Translations under genes and position numbers: made by a program
NCBI RefSeq assembly: GCF_004135365.1
Contig: NZ_CP035492.1
Location: 682,001 to 746,000 of the forward strand
Direction of reading: 5' to 3'
Length of the DNA: 64,000 bases
From: Paenibacillus protaetiae
GTDB taxonomy: Bacteria > Bacillota > Bacilli > Paenibacillales > Paenibacillaceae
The notes under the pieces: model-generated
Told to the model about the DNA's origin: nothing
Seen by the model: only the letters and a program-made list of their open reading frames with translations
The model's database searches: none
Shown: positions 37,184-48,240 of the stretch, in pieces
Layout of the letters: every line of letters begins with the position of its first letter
Numbering within the stretch: position 1 is the stretch's first letter

Positions 37184-37444
37184 TTGGCCATTAAACTTAT
37201 CAATATCGGGTTCGGGAACATCGTTTCCGCAAACCGAATCATCTCGATCGTAAGTCCGGAATCGGCGCCGATCAAACGGATTATTCAAGAAGCCCGTGAT
37301 CGCCACATGCTGATTGATGCGACTTACGGCAGACGGACACGCGCTGTTATTATCACGGACAGCGATCATGTAATTTTGTCCGCCGTGCAGCCGGAGACGG
37401 TTGCCCATCGTTTGTCCACTAAAGACGACGATAATGACGAATAG
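37184..37444 (+). CDS. remA: RemA (DUF370), extracellular matrix regulator
   Basis: 86-residue DNA-binding protein. In B. subtilis RemA activates biofilm matrix operons and osmoprotection genes, and the family sits upstream of gmk. Sequence blocks [16 protein letters not shown] and [19 protein letters not shown] are nearly invariant. It starts with TTG at 37184; GGAGG lies 11 bp upstream and no ATG is available before the conserved start. gmk follows after 13 bp. Confidence 0.95.
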
Positions 37445-37457
37445 TACGGGGAGTAAT

Positions 37458-38077
37458 ATGAATAAGGGATTGTTAGTTGTGTTATCCGGACCTTCCGGTG
37501 TCGGCAAAGGAACTGTGTGCTCCGTGCTTCGCAAGAAGCTTCCGGATCTTGTTTATTCGGTATCGGCAACGACTCGTTCGCCAAGACAGGGCGAAACGAA
37601 CGGAGTTAATTATTTTTTTAAGACGCGCGAGCAGTTTGAAGAAATGATTTCGCGTGATGCTTTGCTGGAGCATGCGGAGTATGTAGGCAACTACTATGGA
37701 ACGCCGCGTGATTTTGTGGAGCGTACAATTGAAGAAGGCAAAGATATTATTTTGGAAATTGAAGTACAGGGCGCCTTAAAGGTGAAAGAGAAATTCCCTG
37801 AAGGCATTTTTATTTTCCTGCTGCCCCTTCGCTGGATGAGCTGAAGCAGCGCATTACCGGAAGAGGAACGGAAACCCAGGATACGATCAATCATCGGATG
37901 TCCGTTGCGGTAGAAGAGATGAATTTGCTTCGCCATTACGATTATGCGGTTGTGAATGATGAAATTGACTTGACATGCCGCCGGATCGAGAGCATTATTA
38001 TTGCCGAGCATTGCCGCAAGGAACGTTTTTTGGAGGAGCTCTCCAGTCCCGAGGCTGCACCAATCGAGAAAGCCTGA
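37458..38077 (+). CDS. gmk: guanylate kinase (apparent frameshift near 37824)
   Basis: Phosphorylates GMP to GDP. 206 residues when one C is added to the CCCC run at 37824-37827 (B. subtilis Gmk has 204). As given, the frame stops at codon 129 after IFIFLLP. In the next frame [19 protein letters not shown] and the rest of the kinase, with YDYAVVND, continue to a stop at 38075-38077. P-loop [11 protein letters not shown] at the start and GMP-binding [11 protein letters not shown] are intact. Gmk is essential in B. subtilis, so the lesion is most likely a sequencing error. ATG 37458 with GGGGAG. rpoZ follows by 16 bp. Confidence 0.93.
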
Positions 38078-39180: not shown

Positions 39181-41250
39181 ATGGTTCAAAGCTTATGGGA
39201 GCAATCGAAAGCGTCACAACTGCAGGCCGGGCTGGATGAGCTTGTTTACCGTTCCAATCTAATCGGCACCGACCGCCGCGTATGCAACTGGGGAGGCGGC
39301 AATACATCAAGCAAAACGGTGGTGCAAGATTTTCGCGGCCGCGACGTTGAGGTGATGTATGTCAAAGGCAGCGGTTCCGACCTTGCAACGATGAAAGCCG
39401 GCAATTTCACCGGCTTGCGCATGGAAGACATCCGCCCGCTGTTTGAACGGGATGCCATGACCGATGAAGAGATGGTCGCTTATTTGGCCAACTGCATGAT
39501 AGACGCCAAGCATCCGCGCGCTTCGATCGAGACGCTGCTTCATGCTTTTCTGCCTTTTAAACATGTGGACCATACTCACCCGGATGCCATTATCAGCTTG
39601 TGCTGCGCACATAACGGCAAAGAGCTGGCACGTGAAATATATGGCGACCGTTTCGTTTGGGTGCCTTATGTGCGTCCCGGCTTTGCTTTATCCAAGATGA
39701 TTGCGCAGGGCGTCCTCGACAACCCGAAAGCCGAGCTTGTGCTGATGGAAAAACACGGCCTCGTCACATGGGGCGAAACAAGCGAAGCTTGTTATGCAAA
39801 AACGATCCAAATCATTAATGAAGCCGAGCAGTTTATTGAAGCCCGTGTCCATAACGACAAGCTGTTCGGCGGCGCGAAGCATGAGCCTCTTCCCGCTGAT
39901 GTCCGCCGCGCGGTTGCAGCGGCCGTCATGCCGGCGATTCGCGGCGCGGTAAGCGATTCGAAAAAAATGATCCTCACCTTCGACGACGAAGCGGATGTGC
40001 TGACATTTGTCGGCGGCCATCATTCTGCGCAGCTGTCGCAAGTTGGCGCAGCATGCCCGGACCATCTGGTGCACACGAAGGTCGTGCCGCTGTTTGTGAA
40101 CTGGAAACCGGATGCAAACGATATCGAAGGGCTGAAGGCGGTTTTGAAGGAATCGATCACCGCTTACAAGCAGCAATATGAAGCTTATTTCAACCGGAAC
40201 AGCAGCGAAGGCGACGTCATGTTCGAATCGGCTCCGCGCGTTATCCTTATCCCTGGCGTCGGCATGATCAATACCGGCAAAAGCTGGTCCAATTCGAAAG
40301 TAAGCGGCGCGCTTTACCACCGCGCGATTGCGGTTATGCGCGGCGCGACGGCGCTGGGCGAGTTTGTATCCTTAAGCGAAAACGAATCGTTTAACGTGGA
40401 ATATTGGCCGCTCGAGCTGTACAAATTGTCGCTTGCGCCTGCCGAAGCCGAGTTTTCCCGCCAAGTGGCGCTTATTACGGGCGGAGCCGGCGGCATCGGC
40501 AGCGAAACGGCACGCCGGCTCGTGTCCGAAGGCGCACATGTCGTGCTTGCCGACTTGAACCTGGAGGGCGCGCAGCATGTCGCAGAAGAATTGAACGCCA
40601 AATATGGCGAGAACCGGGCGATTGCCGTTAAAATGGATGTAACAAACGAAGAGCTTGTTCAATCGGCATACCAAGAAACGGCGCTTACTTACGGCGGCAT
40701 AGACATTATTGTCAATAACGCCGGTCTCGCAACTTCCAGCAAGTTCGAGGACACTTCCCTCAAGGAATGGAACTTGAACATGAATGTCCTTGGAACCGGC
40801 TATTTCCTGGTCGCACGTGAAGCTTATAAGGTAATGCTGGAGCAGGGCATCGGCGGCAATATGGTCTTTATCGGCTCTAAAAATTCAATATTTGCAGGCA
40901 AAAGCGTTACCGCATACAGCGCGGCAAAAGCGCTGGAAGCGCATCTTGCACGCTGCATCGCGGCCGAAGGCGGCGAGCATGGCATCCGCGTCAATACGAT
41001 TCTTCCGGATGCGATTTTGCAGGGCTCGGCGATCTGGAACAGCAATTGGCGCAACGAACGCGCAGCGGCTTACGGCATCGAGCCGGACCAGCTGGAGGAG
41101 CATTACCGGAAACGGACGACGCTGCTCGTGAACATCTATCCGAAAGATATCGCAGAAGGCGTCGCTTTCTTCGCTTCTTCGAAATCGGCTAAAACGACCG
41201 GCTGCATGCTGACGATTGACGGCGGCGTGCCGGCAGCTTTTACACGATAA
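39181..41250 (+). CDS. rhaEW: RhaEW, bifunctional rhamnulose-1-phosphate aldolase / lactaldehyde dehydrogenase
   Basis: Splits L-rhamnulose-1-phosphate into DHAP and L-lactaldehyde and, through its second domain, oxidises the aldehyde to L-lactate. 689 residues, like B. subtilis RhaEW (YuxG). Class II aldolase domain, residues about 1-410, with HVDHTHPDA supplying metal-binding His. Short-chain dehydrogenase domain, about 425-689, with ALITGGAGGIGSE (NAD site), NNAG and the catalytic YSAAK. ATG 39181 preceded by GGAGGAG. First gene of the rhamnose operon, with an ASRT protein, rhaA, rhaB and a DeoR regulator following in the same direction. Confidence 0.93.
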   Translation: MVQSLWEQSKASQLQAGLDELVYRSNLIGTDRRVCNWGGGNTSSKTVVQDFRGRDVEVMYVKGSGSDLATMKAGNFTGLRMEDIRPLFERDAMTDEEMVAYLANCMIDAKHPRASIETLLHAFLPFKHVDHTHPDAIISLCCAHNGKELAREIYGDRFVWVPYVRPGFALSKMIAQGVLDNPKAELVLMEKHGLVTWGETSEACYAKTIQIINEAEQFIEARVHNDKLFGGAKHEPLPADVRRAVAAAVMPAIRGAVSDSKKMILTFDDEADVLTFVGGHHSAQLSQVGAACPDHLVHTKVVPLFVNWKPDANDIEGLKAVLKESITAYKQQYEAYFNRNSSEGDVMFESAPRVILIPGVGMINTGKSWSNSKVSGALYHRAIAVMRGATALGEFVSLSENESFNVEYWPLELYKLSLAPAEAEFSRQVALITGGAGGIGSETARRLVSEGAHVVLADLNLEGAQHVAEELNAKYGENRAIAVKMDVTNEELVQSAYQETALTYGGIDIIVNNAGLATSSKFEDTSLKEWNLNMNVLGTGYFLVAREAYKVMLEQGIGGNMVFIGSKNSIFAGKSVTAYSAAKALEAHLARCIAAEGGEHGIRVNTILPDAILQGSAIWNSNWRNERAAAYGIEPDQLEEHYRKRTTLLVNIYPKDIAEGVAFFASSKSAKTTGCMLTIDGGVPAAFTR

Positions 41251-41280
41251 GCGGCTATAGGGAAAAGGAGAGGTTGACAG

Positions 41281-41658
41281 ATGCAGAAGCAGGCATGGGG
41301 AGAACGACATTGGTTTATACCGGACGGCTACATTCCGGAAACAAGCTCGGGTTCGCTGACGAGCCACGAATCGGTTTGCGTGCTGAATACGTCGGACCGC
41401 GATGCGTCGCTTTCCTTTACGATTTATTTCGAAGACCGGGAGCCGATGGAGCATATTGCCTTTACCGTTCCCGGACGAAGAACCAAACATATTCGAACAA
41501 GCTTGCTGCAAAAGGACGGTGCGCCGATTCCGGTCGGCGTGCCCTATGCGATCGCGGTCGAAAGCGATATTCCGGTTGTCGTCCAGTACAGCAGGCTTGA
41601 TTCTACGCAAGCGGAAAATGCGTTAATGTCGACGCTCGCTTTTCCGGTCAAAGGGTAA
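41281..41658 (+). CDS. ASRT-family (sensory rhodopsin transducer-like) protein
   Basis: 125 residues and full length for the family. It resembles the Anabaena sensory rhodopsin transducer: WFIPDGYIPE, SHESVCVLNTSDRDA, PGRRTKHIR and the closing DSTQAENALMSTLAF all have counterparts in that protein. There is no rhodopsin gene here. The ASRT superfamily has been proposed to bind small molecules, probably sugars, and here it sits between rhaEW and rhaA, 30 bp after the former. It takes the place where other rhamnose operons have the mutarotase RhaM. A rhamnose-binding or -sensing role is inference. ATG 41281, AAAGGAGAGG upstream. Confidence 0.82.
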   Translation: MQKQAWGERHWFIPDGYIPETSSGSLTSHESVCVLNTSDRDASLSFTIYFEDREPMEHIAFTVPGRRTKHIRTSLLQKDGAPIPVGVPYAIAVESDIPVVVQYSRLDSTQAENALMSTLAFPVKG

Positions 41659-41691: not shown

Positions 41692-42911
41692 ATGTCGGAC
41701 CGCGCCTATTCATTATTTGAAGAGCAGCAGCAAGCACGCGGCATCAAGCTGGAGCAAGTACGGGAGAAGCTGAAAGCGCTCCGGATCGAAACTCCGTCCT
41801 GGGGTACGGGGATTCCGGTACACGGTTCAAAAATTTTCAAAAGGTTGGCGTTCCGCGCGACCCGTTTGAAAAATTTGACGATGCCGCCGTTGTGCATAAA
41901 CTGACCGGCCTCGCTCCTTCCGTAGCGATTCATATTCCTTGGGACAAAGTGGAGGATTACAGCAAACTGAAAGCGCATGCAGAAAACGTCGGGCTGAAAA
42001 TCGGCGCGGTTAACCCCAACCTGTTCCAGGAAGACGATTACATGCTGGGCAGCGTGACGAACACCGATGAGGCAGTGCGCCGCAAAGCGATCCAGCATTT
42101 GCTGGAATGCGTCGACATTGCCAAAGAAACCGGGTCGCGCGATTTGAGCTTATGGTTTGCAGACGGGACCAATTATCCGGGCCAAGGCGATATCCGCCGC
42201 CGCAAAGCATGGATGCACGAGGCGCTTTCGGAAATGTATAAAGCGCTGACTCCAGACATGAGAATGCTGATCGAATACAAAACGTTTGAGCCGGCGTTCT
42301 ATCATACCGATATCGCCGATTGGGGCATGGCGTATACGATGGCGCAAAAGCTTGGCCCGCAGGCGCAGGTGCTGGTCGATACCGGCCATCATGCGCAGGG
42401 CATCAACGTTGAGCATATCGTCGCTTATTTGATCGACGAACAGCGGCTCGGCGGCTTCCATTTCAACAACCGCAAATATGCGGATGACGATCTCATCGTC
42501 GGCACAATTAATCCGTACGAACTGTTCCTTATTTTTTATCAAATTTTAAATGCGGCAAACGATTCCGACGCCGGTATCGCCAGCACCGTCAACCATATCG
42601 CGTATATGATTGACCAGTCGCATAATATCGAGCAAAAAATTCCGGCCATGATCCGATCTGTCCTGAACGTACAGACCCAATACGCAAAAGCGCTGCTCGT
42701 CAATCACGAAGAAGTGCTGGATGCGCAAAACCGGAATGACGTGCTGGGCGCGGAAGACGCGGTGCGCAAAGCATTTGAATTCGATGTTACGCCGCTGCTG
42801 CATGCTGTCCGCGAGGAGCAGGGGCTTCCGCTTGATCCGATGAAAGCGTATTTGAACAGCAGCTACGGTACGGACATACTGGCAAGGGGCAAAGGCGGTG
42901 CCAGCTGGTGA
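41692..42911 (+). CDS. rhaA: L-rhamnose isomerase (apparent frameshift near 41801)
   Basis: Interconverts L-rhamnose and L-rhamnulose; TIM-barrel metal enzyme of the RhaI type. 406 residues after adding one G to the GGGG run at 41801-41804. As given, the frame after ETPSWG is wrong; the corrected one reads YGDSGTRFKNFQKVGV and continues through VAIHIPWDK, EYKTFEPAFYHTDIADWGM, VDTGHHAQGINVEH and GGFHFNNRKYADDD to the stop. The last four stretches hold the metal-binding Glu, Asp and His residues. The start ATG 41692 follows GAGAGG. Its TGA stop overlaps the rhaB GTG start. Confidence 0.92.
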
Positions 42912-44376
42912 CCGTTCTGGCCTACGATATCGGAGCGAGCAGCGGCAGGGCGATTATCGGCCGGTTGACGGACAGCACCATGCAAACCGAAGAAATCCAC
43001 CGGTTCCCGAACGATCCCGTTATGGCCGGCAGCCGCATGCACTGGGATATTTTGCGGCTGTTTCATGAGCTGAAGCAGGGGCTGCTGAAGGCGAAGCAAG
43101 CCGGTGCCGCCCCGCCAGCCTTGGCATTGATACGTGGGCGGTCGACTTTGGTTTAATCGGCCGGGACGGCGAGCTGCTTGGCAATCCGTATCATTATCGC
43201 GACCGGCATACGGAAGGCGAGATGGAGCGGGTATTTGCGAGCGTGCCGCAAAGCGAGATTTTTAGCCGGACAGGGATTCAATTTTTGCCGTTTAATACGA
43301 TCTACCAACTGACGGCTATGAAACGCAGCAGTTCTCCGCTGCTTGGCATTGCACATAAGCTGTTGATGATTCCCGATCTTCTCCGGTATTATTTAACGGG
43401 AGAGATATTAAGCGAATTTTCGAATGCGACTACAACTCAGCTGTTTAACCCGCGGCTCGGCGATTGGGATAAGGAGCTGATCGGGAAGCTTGGCTTGCCG
43501 GAGCATCTGTTTGGCGCGATTGTCCATCCGGGCTCGGCCGCAGGCTATGTAAGACCTTCGGTCCGGTCCGAGCTTCAAATCGGCGAAATGCCGGTCATTG
43601 CCGTTGCGGAGCATGATACGGGTTCGGCGGTTGCGGCTGTTCCGGCGCTGGAGCGTTCTTTTGCTTATTTAAGCTGCGGCACTTGGTCGCTGATGGGAAC
43701 GGAAGTCGAACGGCCGGTTCTTGATGAGCGGGCGCAGAAGCTTAACTTTACGAATGAAGGCGGCGCAGGCAACACGTACAGGCTGCTGAAAAATATAATG
43801 GGCCTCTGGATTTTACAGGAAACAAGGCGTGAGCTGGAGCGTGCAGGGCAGTCCTATACGTTCCCGCAGCTTGTCCGGCTGGCAGAAGAGGCGAATCCCT
43901 TTGCGGCCTTGATCGAGCCGGACGATGCTTTGTTTTTACACGCGGGCGATATGACGCCGCGCATCCGCGAGTATTGTCTCCGGACGGGGCAGAAGCCTCC
44001 GGAAGAGGTTGGCGCTGTAGTGCGCTGCATTCTCGAAAGTTTGGCGCTGCAATACCGCCGCGTATACGAAATGACGGAGCAGCTGTCCGGGCAAACGTTT
44101 GGCGGGCTCCATATGGTAGGCGGCGGCATTCAAAACAGCCTGCTGTGCCAATGGACGGCTAATGCCATCGGCAAGCCGGTATGGGCCGGCCCGACGGAAG
44201 GCAGCGCCATCGGCAATCTGGCCGTACAATGGATCGCAAGCGGCGAGCTTCGGGATATTTGGGAAGCGCGCCGGGTGATACGGGATTCCTTTCCGGTGGA
44301 TGTGTACGAGCCGGAAGACCGGGCGTCTTGGGAAGAGGCCTACGGCCGGTTCCTCCGCCTGACGGAATCGGAATAA
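42908..44376 (+). CDS. rhaB: rhamnulokinase (apparent frameshift near 43124)
   Basis: Phosphorylates L-rhamnulose at C1 with ATP; FGGY kinase. 489 residues once one G is added at 43123-43124. As given, the frame runs out after KQAGAAPPAL; the corrected one reads GIDTWAVDFGLIGRDGELLG, the invariant family block, and continues to 44376. N-terminal AYDIGASSGRAIIGRL (phosphate loop) and C-terminal MVGGGIQNSLLCQWTANAIG (ATP-binding) are visible. It starts with GTG 42908 inside the rhaA stop, so it is translationally coupled to rhaA. The next gene is the DeoR regulator. Confidence 0.92.
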
Positions 44377-44405
44377 TTTCAAGCAGGAAGAATGGAGAGA
44401 AGGTT

Positions 44406-45164
44406 ATGCTGGTTGCAGAACGGTATGAAAAAATCGTACAGCTTGTGAATGAAAGAGGAAGCATCCGGGTTTCCGAATTAAGCGAGCTGTGCCAGGTGAC
44501 AGAGGAAACGATACGGCGGGATTTGGACCGTCTCGAACAGGACGGCAGGCTTAAACGTTCACATGGCGGTGCGGTCAGCGTAAAAGATCAGCAGCCGGAA
44601 ACTCCATTTGCAGAGAGGGAAATTGCACATGCCGAGGAGAAGAAACGGATCGCCGAAGAGGCGGTGAAGCTGATTCAGCCCCATGACCGCATCGTGCTTG
44701 ATGCAAGCTCTACGGCATGGTATATGGCCGCTATTTTGCCGGATATGCCGATTACCGTGCTGACCAACTCCATTAAAGTAGCGGTGGAGCTAAGCACGAA
44801 GGAAAAAATCGAAGTCATTTCGACGGGCGGGTTGCTTTCTTCGCGGTCGCTATCTTACGTAGGGCCGCTTGCCGAGCGGTCGCTGGACGCTTATTACGTA
44901 GGGAAGCTGTTTTTATCGTGCAAAGGCGTTCATCTGGAGCGCGGCATCAGCGAATCCAACGAGCTGCAAGGACGGATTAAGCAAAAGATGATCGGTATCG
45001 CCGAGAAGGTTATTTTGCTGGCGGATTCAAGCAAATTTGGCGTGCAGGCGTTTACCCACGTAGCGGAGCTTGGCGAGGTTCATACCGTCATTACAGACCG
45101 GATGATCGGACAGGAGACATTAGCCCGGCTGCAGGAAAAAAATATACCGGTCACGACGGTATAA
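44406..45164 (+). CDS. rhaR: DeoR-family transcriptional regulator, probable rhamnose repressor
   Basis: 252 residues. N-terminal DeoR helix-turn-helix with RYEKIVQLVNERGSIRVSEL and VTEETIRRDLDRLEQDG, then the sugar-phosphate-sensing domain (about 75-235) with DASSTAWYMA and STGGLL. B. subtilis RhaR (YulB) is of the same family and lies in its rhamnose operon, where rhamnulose-1-phosphate is the inducer. The symbol is from context. ATG 44406 with GAGAGAAGG, 29 bp after rhaB; last gene of the operon. Confidence 0.87.
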   Translation: MLVAERYEKIVQLVNERGSIRVSELSELCQVTEETIRRDLDRLEQDGRLKRSHGGAVSVKDQQPETPFAEREIAHAEEKKRIAEEAVKLIQPHDRIVLDASSTAWYMAAILPDMPITVLTNSIKVAVELSTKEKIEVISTGGLLSSRSLSYVGPLAERSLDAYYVGKLFLSCKGVHLERGISESNELQGRIKQKMIGIAEKVILLADSSKFGVQAFTHVAELGEVHTVITDRMIGQETLARLQEKNIPVTTV

Positions 45165-45220: not shown

Positions 45221-45276
45221 CCTGATAAAGCGAATATAAATAGAAGTGCCACTCTTGAAACAAGAAGGTGCCCTCC

Positions 45277-46005
45277 ATGAAGGTTTCATTATTTATTACC
45301 TGCTTAAGCGACGCGATTTATCCCCGCGTAGGGGAGGCGATGGCGCGGCTTCTGGCGAGATACGGCGTCGAGCTTCATTTTCCAAAGATACAAACCTGCT
45401 GCGGCCAGCCTGCATTCAACAGCGGTTATTGGGACGAAGCGCGGACATCGGCCAGAACGATATTGGATGCGTTTGAAGACAGCGATTTTGTTATTGCGCC
45501 ATCGGGCTCTTGCACGGGAATGATCCACCATTATCCAAAGCTGTTTGAACAAGATCCCGTCAACCTGGCAAGAGCGCAGAGGCTGCAGGAGAAAGCGTAC
45601 GAATTTACGCAATTTCTTGTGCAGGTGCTTGGGGTGGAAGATGTCGGCGCCAGCTTTCCGCATAAGGTAACGTATCACCCTTCCTGCCACGGTTCACGGA
45701 TTTTGGGCATTAAAGACGAACCGATGACGCTGATGAAGCATGTGGAAGGGCTGGAATTGGTACCGCTTCCTTATGCGGAAGACTGCTGCGGCTTCGGTGG
45801 CACGTTTGCTGTAAAAATGTCCGATATATCCGGTGCGATGGTGACGGAAAAAGCCGACCATGTGCTGGAGTCGGAAGCAGAGGTGCTGGTTGGGCTGGAT
45901 ATGGGCTGCCTGATGAATATCGGCGGCAATTTGCGGTACCGGAACAAACCGGTCAAGGTGATGCACTTGGCTGAACTTTTGTACGAAGGGGTGACGAGCC
46001 GATGA
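45277..46005 (+). CDS. lutA: LutA, lactate utilisation Fe-S subunit
   Basis: One of three subunits of the L-lactate oxidising LutABC system, which converts L-lactate to pyruvate. 242 residues with two CCG domains that bind Fe-S cofactor: QTCCGQPAFNSGYW in the first half and EDCCGFGGTFAVK in the second, plus YHPSCHG. ATG 45277 is chosen because the family starts with MKVSLFITC; an in-frame GTG at 45268 forms part of the ribosome site. The stop overlaps the lutB start (ATGA). Confidence 0.94.
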   Translation: MKVSLFITCLSDAIYPRVGEAMARLLARYGVELHFPKIQTCCGQPAFNSGYWDEARTSARTILDAFEDSDFVIAPSGSCTGMIHHYPKLFEQDPVNLARAQRLQEKAYEFTQFLVQVLGVEDVGASFPHKVTYHPSCHGSRILGIKDEPMTLMKHVEGLELVPLPYAEDCCGFGGTFAVKMSDISGAMVTEKADHVLESEAEVLVGLDMGCLMNIGGNLRYRNKPVKVMHLAELLYEGVTSR

Positions 46006-47525
46006 GCGCAGCTTCCCAAAAAGCGGCTGGTTCTACTGTTAAAGAGCGGGCGGGTCTCGCTTTAAACGACGATTTCCTGCGCAAAGCGGTCCGCTTCACG
46101 ACGGAACGGCTGCGCAACGGCAAAAAAACCGCTTCCGCCGATCAAGGCAATTGGGAGGAATGGCGCGAACGCGGCCGTCAAATCCGCCTGCATACGATTG
46201 CCCATTTGGACTATTATTTAAATTTATTTGTCGAGAATGCGCGCGCGAACGGCGTCCATGTCCATTTTGCCGACAAAGGGGAAGATGCGGTAGCCATCGC
46301 GCTGGAAATTGCGGAACGGAAAAACGCCAAGTCCGTTGTTAAATCGAAGTCGATGGTTTCCGAGGAGCTGCATCTGAACAAGGCGCTGGAGCAAATCGGC
46401 GTAGAAGCGGTCGAAACCGATCTGGGCGAATATATTATTCAGCTGGCGGACGAGACGCCGTCTCATATTGTCATTCCGGCCATTCATAAAAACCGCTACC
46501 AGATTGCCGAACTGCTGTCCAAGGAAGCGGGAGAGACGCTGCCGCCGGATACGACGGCTTTGGCCGGCTTCGTGCGGCGCAAGCTGCGCGAGAAATTTCT
46601 CGAAGCGGATATCGGCATGACGGGCTGCAACTTTGCGATTGCCGAAACCGGCTCGATGGTGCTGTTCGAGAATGAGGGGAACGCCCGTATGGTCACCACG
46701 GTACCGAAAACGCAAATCACCCTGATGGGCATGGAACGGATTATTCCATCGTTTGAAGATCTTGAAGTGCTTGCGACATTGCTGCCGCGTTCGGCTACGG
46801 GACAAAAGCTGACGATGTATATGTCCGCCATCTCGGGGCCACGCCGTTCGGAGGACGCGGACGGTCCGGACGAAATGCATATTATTATCGTGGACAACGG
46901 ACGTTCGCTGCAGCTTGGCGATCCGGAATTCCAGGAGCTGCTGAACTGCATCCGCTGCGGCGCTTGCTTGAATGCATGCCCGGTATACCGCCATATCGGC
47001 GGCCATTCGTACGGCGGCACGTACAGCGGCCCGATTGGCGCGGTGCTGACGCCGGCGCTGAAGCAAAATGTCGCGGAATGGGACGATATCGCCAACGCGT
47101 CCAGCTTATGCGGCGCTTGCTACGAAGCATGCCCGGTCAAAATCCCGCTGCATGAAATGCTGGTTTATTTGCGCCGGCGCAAGCAGGAGGGCGGGTACAA
47201 CGATAAGCTGGAGACGGTCGGCATGAAAGGGTTCGCGGCAGTGACCGGCAGCTCGAAGCTGTTCAAGGGCGCAGTCAAAATCGGCCAGCTCGGGCAAAAG
47301 CTTGTGGTGCGCAATGGCGGCATTCCGCTCAAGGTCGGCCCGCTTAAAGGCTGGAACACGTACCGGATATTCCCGAGCCTGCCGAAGCAGTCGTTCCGCG
47401 ACAGCTGGCATACGATTGAGCAGGAAATCCGCGGCGAACTGAAAGCGATGGATCCGGCGATGAAAGCGCGGATGGAAGCGATCCGGAATCGTCAAGGAGG
47501 AGGCGCAGCACATCATGGCTCATGA
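46002..47525 (+). CDS. lutB: LutB, lactate utilisation ferredoxin-type subunit
   Basis: 507 residues. N-terminal LUD-type domain (about 60-300), then two 4Fe-4S clusters of the CxxCxxCxxxCP kind: CIRCGACLNACPVY near 319 and CGACYEACPVK near 370, preceded by a separate Cys. The end (LKGWNTYRIFPSLPKQSFR) is typical of LutB. Electron-transfer core of LutABC. The start ATG is within the lutA stop; the stop overlaps the lutC start by 11 bp. Confidence 0.95.
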   Translation: MSAASQKAAGSTVKERAGLALNDDFLRKAVRFTTERLRNGKKTASADQGNWEEWRERGRQIRLHTIAHLDYYLNLFVENARANGVHVHFADKGEDAVAIALEIAERKNAKSVVKSKSMVSEELHLNKALEQIGVEAVETDLGEYIIQLADETPSHIVIPAIHKNRYQIAELLSKEAGETLPPDTTALAGFVRRKLREKFLEADIGMTGCNFAIAETGSMVLFENEGNARMVTTVPKTQITLMGMERIIPSFEDLEVLATLLPRSATGQKLTMYMSAISGPRRSEDADGPDEMHIIIVDNGRSLQLGDPEFQELLNCIRCGACLNACPVYRHIGGHSYGGTYSGPIGAVLTPALKQNVAEWDDIANASSLCGACYEACPVKIPLHEMLVYLRRRKQEGGYNDKLETVGMKGFAAVTGSSKLFKGAVKIGQLGQKLVVRNGGIPLKVGPLKGWNTYRIFPSLPKQSFRDSWHTIEQEIRGELKAMDPAMKARMEAIRNRQGGGAAHHGS

Positions 47526-48240
47526 GCATCAAGCTTGGCTGAACCATATGGAGCAGCAATCAAAAGCGAAGCAGCAGCAGTTTATGGACGGCATTGCCGC
47601 AAGGCTGAAGCGGCCGCGCCAGCTGGAGAAGCCGGAACAGCCGTTCCGCGGCGCCCCGGAGTTTTGGCAATCGTATACGCTGGGTGAAGAGGAGCGTGTG
47701 CATACGTTTTCCGAACATTTCAATAGCGTTGGCGGGCATGTTGTCCGCGCTGCCGATATGGAGGAAGCAAAAGCATTTATCGTCAGCAAAGCCGAGGAGA
47801 CGGGCGCGCGTTATCTGGTGCGTCAGCAGGAGCCGGCGCTGGAAGCGCTGGCTCTCGAAGAAGCGCTGCCTGAAGCGGAATTGTCCGTCTGGAACAGCGG
47901 CACGGAGGAGAATTGGAAAGCGCGTGCCGCCGAAGCGGACTTTGGCATTGTAATGGCCGACCATGCGGTTGCGCATACCGGCTCGGTTGTTGTGCGGTCA
48001 GCGAAGGAGAAAGGAAGATCGGTCAGCCTGCTGCCGACCGTACTGCTGATTATTGTCCCGGTTGAACGAATCGTCACGAGACTTGGCGAGGTGTTGAAGC
48101 CGCTTGACGAAAGCGGTCGCGAGCACCTGCCGGCAGGCATTCATTTTATTTCGGGTCCCAGCCGTTCTTCGGACATTGAGAATGATTTGACGATTGGCGT
48201 TCATGGCCCGGGAATCGTTTATGCTATACTGGTTGGCTAG
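47515..48240 (+). CDS. lutC: LutC, LUD-domain lactate utilisation protein
   Basis: 241 residues, third subunit of LutABC. The LUD domain covers about residues 60-240; FGIVMADHAVAHTGSVVV and IHFISGPSRSSDIENDLTIG are its conserved blocks. ATG 47515 with AAGGAGGAGG upstream inside lutB. The regulator lutR lies 25 bp downstream in the same direction. Confidence 0.94.
   Translation: MAHEHQAWLNHMEQQSKAKQQQFMDGIAARLKRPRQLEKPEQPFRGAPEFWQSYTLGEEERVHTFSEHFNSVGGHVVRAADMEEAKAFIVSKAEETGARYLVRQQEPALEALALEEALPEAELSVWNSGTEENWKARAAEADFGIVMADHAVAHTGSVVVRSAKEKGRSVSLLPTVLLIIVPVERIVTRLGEVLKPLDESGREHLPAGIHFISGPSRSSDIENDLTIGVHGPGIVYAILVG

Follow-up and report, generated by a model that had tools for sequence, protein, structure and literature searches.

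An ASRT-family gene in Paenibacillaceae rhamnose operons alternates with RhaM and may encode an L-rhamnose mutarotase

The window, a stretch of 64,000 nucleotides from Paenibacillus protaetiae, contains a rhamnose operon in which a gene of the ASRT family lies between rhaEW and an L-rhamnose isomerase gene (Table 1). The ASRT gene opens with an ATG, 10 bp downstream of an AGGAG motif, and encodes a protein of 125 amino acids; it starts 30 bp downstream of rhaEW, and the ATG of the isomerase gene follows 33 bp past its stop codon. A preliminary description of this DNA had placed the ASRT protein between rhaEW and rhaA. The location and the family assignment were confirmed, but the isomerase belongs to the RhaI type (TIGR02635) and not to the family of E. 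coli RhaA. The same description had reported that a RhaM-type mutarotase is missing from the window, and this holds genome-wide, as a search of the whole genome for RhaM (PF05336) returned no match. As assembled, the isomerase gene and rhaB each contain one frame break relative to a related genome, in a one-contig assembly that is 99.99% complete. The isomerase open reading frame at 41892-42911 scored above the TIGR02635 cut-off (1.3e-165), and the match of the rhaB open reading frame at 43222-44376 to TIGR02627 (5.8e-116) fell under the curated cut-off because this frame is partial. The two breaks are probably assembly indels, yet they could be real; a genuinely disrupted isomerase could leave ASRT without a task in this strain. 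A guanylate-kinase-like open reading frame at 37401-37844 also looks short, probably through another assembly indel.

Table 1. Features of the rhamnose operon, numbered from the first nucleotide of the window
Feature	Position	Strand	Evidence or remark
rhaEW, bifunctional L-rhamnulose-1-phosphate aldolase / lactaldehyde dehydrogenase	39181..41250	+	TIGR02632 8.2e-303, NF006190 over cut-off
Ribosome-binding site AGGAG of the ASRT gene	41266..41270	+	Read from the sequence
ASRT-family gene (PF07100)	41281..41658	+	PF07100 1.8e-49, PDB matches, structure model; SHESVCVLN signature at residues 28-36
L-rhamnose isomerase, RhaI type (TIGR02635)	41692..42911	+	Two frames, break within 41802-41847
Rhamnulokinase rhaB	42908..44376	+	Two frames, break near 43117-43129
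DeoR-family regulator, likely RhaR	44397..45164	+	PF00455 2.4e-52; in 71/71 loci with RhaEW (best 80 of 190)
lutABC-like lactate utilisation genes	45268..48240 (45268-46005, 46002-47525, 47515-48240)	+	CCG, LUD and LutB_C domains

The window protein matches PF07100 (formerly DUF1362) over residues 7-122 and profile positions 2-119 of 119, with 167.1 bits against a cut-off of 25, and gave no match to the PF05336 profile. Among proteins of known structure, it matched Anabaena ASRT (2ii7, 3.2e-32) and Thermotoga TM1070 (1nc7, 6.7e-24), two PF07100 members with which it has in common the full-length match, the beta-sandwich and the SHExxCxxN strand signature (S28, H29, E30, C33 and N36). A monomer model (pLDDT 87.7) predicted a beta-sandwich like that of 1nc7 (Foldseek E 1.8e-11; VIA Z 18.1, rmsd 1.9 over 116 residues). 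Beyond the family, the first fold matches were carbohydrate-binding modules at Z 6.6, a level that the tool rates as weak and at which they were mixed with unrelated proteins; as the tool describes such neighbours (Z up to 6.6) as sharing a common arrangement, we drew no function from them. For conservation, we reduced 199 matches, nearly all from Bacilli, to 141 distinct sequences by dropping those of fewer than about 100 residues or with a stop and merging identical ones, which with the window protein gave a set of 142. Seven residues are the same in all 142 (W11, P19, N36, R67, Q102, R105 and D107), and five more are nearly invariant (H29 in 140, E30 in 138 with Asp in the other 4, C33 in 138, H70 in 139 and R72 in 141). 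TM1070, which lies outside this set, has Lys at position 67. So many invariant polar residues appear rich for a simple binding domain and would fit acid-base chemistry on a sugar ring. Seven pairs were compared for the dN/dS of the gene (NG86): four yielded a value, below about 0.25 and with dS above 1, and no dS was obtained for the remaining three.

In rhodopsin research, ASRT is known as a signal transducer. No match to rhodopsin (PF01036) was found in the source genome or in 79 other ASRT genomes, an absence that is weak evidence because no control genome gave a match either. The rhamnose-operon setting and, if it is real, this absence distinguish the window protein from the known PF07100 members. 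DNA binding and looping, with contacts through R109, Q110 and N113, are described for the Anabaena protein at the pec promoter in the accessible part of the published work, so that a DNA-binding regulator has to be considered. The window protein retains Q110 and N113, but the contact Arg aligns with a Thr, as it does in 121 of the 142 sequences (Arg in 11), and the operon already has a DeoR regulator; this is the least probable of the readings that we weighed.

The superfamily was defined by De Souza et al (2009; PMC2739507), who, in the accessible part of their paper, proposed from fold, pocket and gene neighbourhoods that its members are sugar-binding sensors. They described ASRT operons with sugar isomerase, aldolase and kinase genes, including one in Thermotoga, as well as ASRT relatives in bacteria without rhodopsin, and put forward the idea that a role unrelated to light came first. 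Sugar binding by the family, as far as that text goes, was thus proposed in 2009, and its link to sugars is already known; what is new here is the evidence for displacement and the specific reaction.

To see how far the arrangement extends, species genomes were scanned with the window protein, and the best 80 loci of 190 relatives were retained. These loci came from Paenibacillus, Cohnella, Thermobacillus, Gordonibacillus, two entries named 'Bacillus sp.' and Paenibacillaceae, with a few species represented twice. RhaEW lies upstream of ASRT in 71 of the 80, at a distance of 13-350 bp (median 35), and every one of the 71 also has RhaB, a DeoR gene and an L-rhamnose isomerase. The recurrence of the same gene order in 71 of these best 80 loci speaks against a chance arrangement. 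The isomerase is of the E. coli RhaA type in 44 of the 71 and of the RhaI type in 27, and as two unrelated isomerase families occur beside ASRT, the link is with the reaction rather than with a single partner. No RhaM match was found at any of the 80 loci within the 8-20 kb fetched for each. RhaEW is missing at the remaining nine (L114, L128, L131, L134, L148, L152, L153, L161 and L164).

RhaM (RhaU; PF05336) is, like ASRT, a small single-domain gene tied to rhamnose use, and the two alternate across genomes with RhaEW. We compared them in two overlapping sets, a class set of 299 genomes searched for ASRT, RhaEW and PF05336 and an order set of 179 genomes, with RhaEW scored solely above its curated cut-off and all PF05336 members taken, as an assumption, to be rhamnose mutarotases. 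ASRT fragments in G168 and G109 were excluded from the class set and two weak RhaM rows (G064 and G081) were retained, and the order-set count includes G445 (an ASRT fragment) and G340 (a split ASRT). The class set contained 55 RhaEW genomes, of which 27 had ASRT only, 22 RhaM only, none both and 6 neither; RhaEW was above the cut-off in every one of the 27 genomes whose ASRT match was near full length. Among the 126 RhaEW genomes of the order set, the corresponding counts were 61, 43, 14 and 8. Over the union of 159 RhaEW genomes, with the broken ASRT of G445 taken as absent, they were 72, 61, 13 and 13 (Fisher p 2.5e-18, kinship ignored). Within 12 kb of rhaEW, RhaM was found in 12 genomes, ASRT in 38 and both in none, against 2.9 expected, which is weak by itself. 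These counts, and the tree described below, cover Bacilli; other phyla were seen through nine plasmid neighbourhoods and the control genomes, where ASRT was found in one of 14, RhaM in five and both in none.

As a single genus (g3) dominates the class set, we rejected genome counts alone as proof and used a tree-based test. The RhaEW tree covers 95 of the 159 genomes: 40 of the 72 with ASRT only, 37 of the 61 with RhaM only (including G445), 5 of the 13 with both and all 13 with neither. ASRT avoids RhaM on this operon tree; the states are intermixed, with 18 parsimony changes for each gene, and a Pagel test (four-state Markov comparison, 95 tips) rejected independence (LR 33.9, p 7.7e-7) with the ASRT of G445 scored as absent. 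The result was similar with G445 scored as ASRT-bearing (LR 31.2, p 2.8e-6), with large genera thinned to 71 tips (p 3.4e-6) and with the damaged ASRTs of G445, G340 and G055 all scored as absent (p 3.5e-6); relabelling eight ASRT-only tips as 'both', in eight random draws, gave p of about 0.002. By the fitted rates, which are rough, ASRT is lost about 13 times faster when RhaM is present, RhaM genomes acquire ASRT at a rate close to zero, and RhaM arises solely in ASRT-bearing lineages, so both genes must coexist for some time.

The exclusion could still reflect the inheritance of two operon types in different lineages, with no functional meaning. In keeping with this, 15 of the 27 class-set genomes with ASRT belong to g3, the tree takes in all of the 'neither' genomes and a smaller share of the 'both' genomes, and the failure of ASRT and RhaM to coincide near rhaEW is set against a small expectation. 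The 18 changes of each gene and the persistence of the signal after thinning argue against it, as does the presence of both states inside one genus (g147), and we regard this explanation, already weakened, as very unlikely. Of nine rha loci fetched from PF05336 genomes of g147, eight lack ASRT in the slot between rhaEW and the isomerase gene and one (G372) has it, and in G344, a PF05336-free member of the genus, ASRT occupies that slot. In G445 the slot holds an ASRT remnant and RhaM lies elsewhere in the genome, whereas the remnant in G356 is 27 aa long and both the isomerase and most of rhaB are lost. Two further genomes have a damaged ASRT gene, which is split between two frames in G340 and has one internal stop in G055; both have the isomerase at the locus and lack PF05336, and this damage may be sequencing error.

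The 14 genomes with both genes were considered as possible carriers of PF05336 proteins for other sugars. The PF05336 tree does not allow this for all of them, and they were kept as 'both' in the tests, apart from the changes in the scoring of G445 given above. Six have their PF05336 protein in a clade without any member within 12 kb of rhaEW, and one of these proteins adjoins an L-fuconolactonase gene (L347). Seven share a clade with proteins of G125, G179, G136, G200 and G056 that are encoded less than 12 kb from rhaEW; within it, the one examined protein of a five-genome subgroup adjoins an arabinose-isomerase-like gene (L354). The protein of G445 belongs to the most widespread PF05336 clade, which is also found in G311, and a second PF05336 protein of G315 forms a long branch next to the clade of operon RhaM. 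Separately, a PF05336 clade of 27 rows (L337-L344, L346 and L348) mostly lacks rha genes in the fetched flanks; it is near rhaEW only in G341, G087 and G175, yet it alternates with ASRT, and its substrate is putative.

The presence of ASRT or RhaM is linked to that of an L-rhamnose isomerase. The order set holds 118 RhaEW genomes that carry ASRT or RhaM; 80 of these, drawn at random, were searched for the isomerase at E 1e-50, and the 13 genomes with neither gene at 1e-3. All 80 have an isomerase (31 of the RhaI type and 50 of the RhaA type, G401 having both), as opposed to 6 of the 13, the other 7 having neither family over the cut-off (Fisher p 1.8e-7, or 5.8e-7 when G340 and G055 are counted as 'neither', kinship uncorrected in this test). 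The six genomes with isomerase and RhaEW and neither gene are G166, G332, G092, G285 and G289 (98-100% complete) and G434 (78% complete). In G336, G339, G358 and G423, the locus carries rhaEW, DeoR and lut genes, and ASRT is absent, as is an isomerase anywhere in the genome. That such rhaEW-DeoR-lut loci lack ASRT and RhaM when the isomerase is gone suggests that the missing function belongs to the first pathway step and not to downstream regulation. These four RhaEW-DeoR-lut operons (L370, L371, L373 and L374) lie in genomes that have neither of the two known isomerase families, and RhaEW may serve another substrate there.

With moderate confidence, we consider that ASRT would do the job of RhaM in the rha operon, most simply as an L-rhamnose mutarotase. 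It would speed the exchange between alpha- and beta-L-rhamnose and would thereby supply the adjacent L-rhamnose isomerase with the anomer that it uses. The shared job would be mutarotation and the sugar L-rhamnose, and His29, Glu30 and His70, together with the invariant Arg and Asp residues, would make up the active site. Against this reading stand the six genomes with RhaEW and an isomerase and neither gene, the damaged ASRTs of G340 and G055, the genomes that carry both families, the period of coexistence implied by the fitted rates, the position of ASRT outside the rha operon in g3 and the Lys of TM1070 at position 67. The preliminary description had listed a supply of mutarotation among three options, and this option gains backing from the mutual exclusion of RhaM and ASRT and from the coupling of both to the isomerase; the other two, in which ASRT would bind rhamnose or signal the sugar status, are compatible with the data.

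The main alternative follows the published proposal (De Souza et al, 2009; PMC2739507), which in its accessible part rests on fold, pocket and neighbourhoods: ASRT would be an intracellular sugar sensor that binds L-rhamnose or a product unchanged and tunes the enzymes, the transporter or DeoR by contact. The carbohydrate-binding modules among the fold matches point the same way, at the weak level already described. In addition, ASRT stands beside a DeoR gene at six loci (L131, L153, L161, L385, L389 and L395) with rha enzymes absent from the fetched flanks; these pairs favour a regulatory tie, are not accounted for by mutarotation and would fit a sensor at least as well. A pure sensor, however, gives no reason for the avoidance of RhaM or for the faster loss of ASRT when RhaM is present. 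ASRT is missing from the four isomerase-free genomes that retain RhaEW, DeoR and lut genes, and it accompanies two unrelated isomerase families; both observations speak against a sensor. We give this alternative a minor but appreciable chance.

The proposed mutarotase role can be compared with two known rhamnose systems. In the accessible part of Rodionov et al (2013; PMC3750489), the rhamnose operon of Thermotoga maritima is given as rhaMADBC and is induced 27-37-fold on rhamnose. Our control search of this genome found an ASRT match and a RhaI-type isomerase and no PF05336, so that the 'rhaM' of T. maritima is probably TM1070; if so, the name would be a tentative earlier assignment of a mutarotase to an ASRT protein. 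As far as those parts of the published descriptions go, this operon resembles the one in the window in being a DeoR-controlled rhamnose operon with ASRT, an isomerase and no PF05336. It differs in that Thermotogales have RhaD (accessible part of PMC3870299), and a search of T. maritima for RhaEW at E 1e-100 returned no match. The B. subtilis-type rhaEW operon, in the accessible part of Rodionova et al (2013; PMC3870299), shares RhaEW, isomerase, kinase and regulator with the window, whereas in our control searches B. subtilis has RhaM and lacks ASRT. Literature searches, with subscription papers outside their coverage, found nothing joining 'mutarotase' with 'rhodopsin transducer'; those for ASRT with rhamnose returned other subjects, judging by titles and abstract openings, and those for a rhamnose mutarotase in Paenibacillus returned another enzyme, judging by its listing.

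ASRT genes also occur outside rha operons. In all 15 fetched loci of genus g3, one such gene lies with genes for a sugar-binding protein (transporter) and a GDSL esterase; the esterase resembles YxiM and, at a weaker level, rhamnogalacturonan acetylesterase. A neighbour resembling rhamnogalacturonan acetylesterase is also present at L383, L384, L388 and L393. In a survey of plasmids, nine regions were opened from 79 records with an ASRT match (59 of the 79 from Sinorhizobium), and in all nine, sugar-oxidation, sugar-acid or glycosidase genes lie within 8 kb, on the opposite strand from ASRT in four (Methylomagnum, Nitrobacter, Caballeronia and Klebsiella). ASRT adjoins a D-arabinono-lactone oxidase on the Natrononativus plasmid. 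Two Deinococcus plasmids and that of Caballeronia have varying sets of GMC oxidoreductase or gluconate-2-dehydrogenase-type genes, TPP enzymes and GH15 near it, and the Nitrobacter region has such a set without GH15. Glycosidases lie near ASRT in Methylomagnum; in Sinorhizobium, two ASRT copies occur with amylase and FAD-oxidase genes; and on a Klebsiella pneumoniae IncFIB plasmid (L256) ASRT adjoins a sugar porter, an SDR, a mandelate-racemase-family enzyme and a GntR regulator. An association of ASRT with sugar operons in other genomes, whose absence the preliminary description had named as a refutation of its proposal, was thus found, in the form of rha operons at 71 of the best 80 of 190 loci and sugar genes in nine of nine opened plasmid regions.

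Such contexts bear on a third possibility, in which ASRT is another small enzyme or ligand carrier tied to the free aldose; it might, for instance, release or protect one ring form once an oligosaccharide has been cleaved, and its overlap with RhaM would be only partial. The rhamnogalacturonan-acetylesterase-like neighbours (15 of 15 g3 loci and the four others) and the aldose oxidases and glucoamylases near ASRT would suit it. A reaction shared with RhaM is the simplest account of the complementary pattern and of the tie to the isomerase, and we consider this third possibility unlikely. Several of the plasmid neighbours act on free aldoses, as a mutarotase would need, which is suggestive only. 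A broader extension of the mutarotase reading, conceivable but doubtful, is that the whole ASRT family is an unrecognised class of aldose mutarotases, acting on L-rhamnose in rha operons and on other aldoses near sugar oxidases and glucoamylases; the Anabaena 'transducer' would then be a present or former mutarotase bound and gated by a light sensor, and light would control the rate of a change in sugar ring form.

For the rha operon itself, the displacement pattern narrows the idea that ASRT proteins bind sugars to a single reaction on a single substrate, which one bench assay can address. If the assignment as an L-rhamnose mutarotase is right, it adds a family of mutarotases with no sequence relationship to RhaM, supplies a step that is missing from rhamnose use in Paenibacillaceae and probably in Thermotoga, and suggests what was recruited once a rhodopsin had ASRT as its partner. 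One minor observation concerns the paired Sinorhizobium genes: the second ASRT copy (L252:9610 and L258:9721) has lost pocket residues (H29R, E30D, C33A and H70R) next to an intact first copy, and is perhaps a non-catalytic partner subunit.
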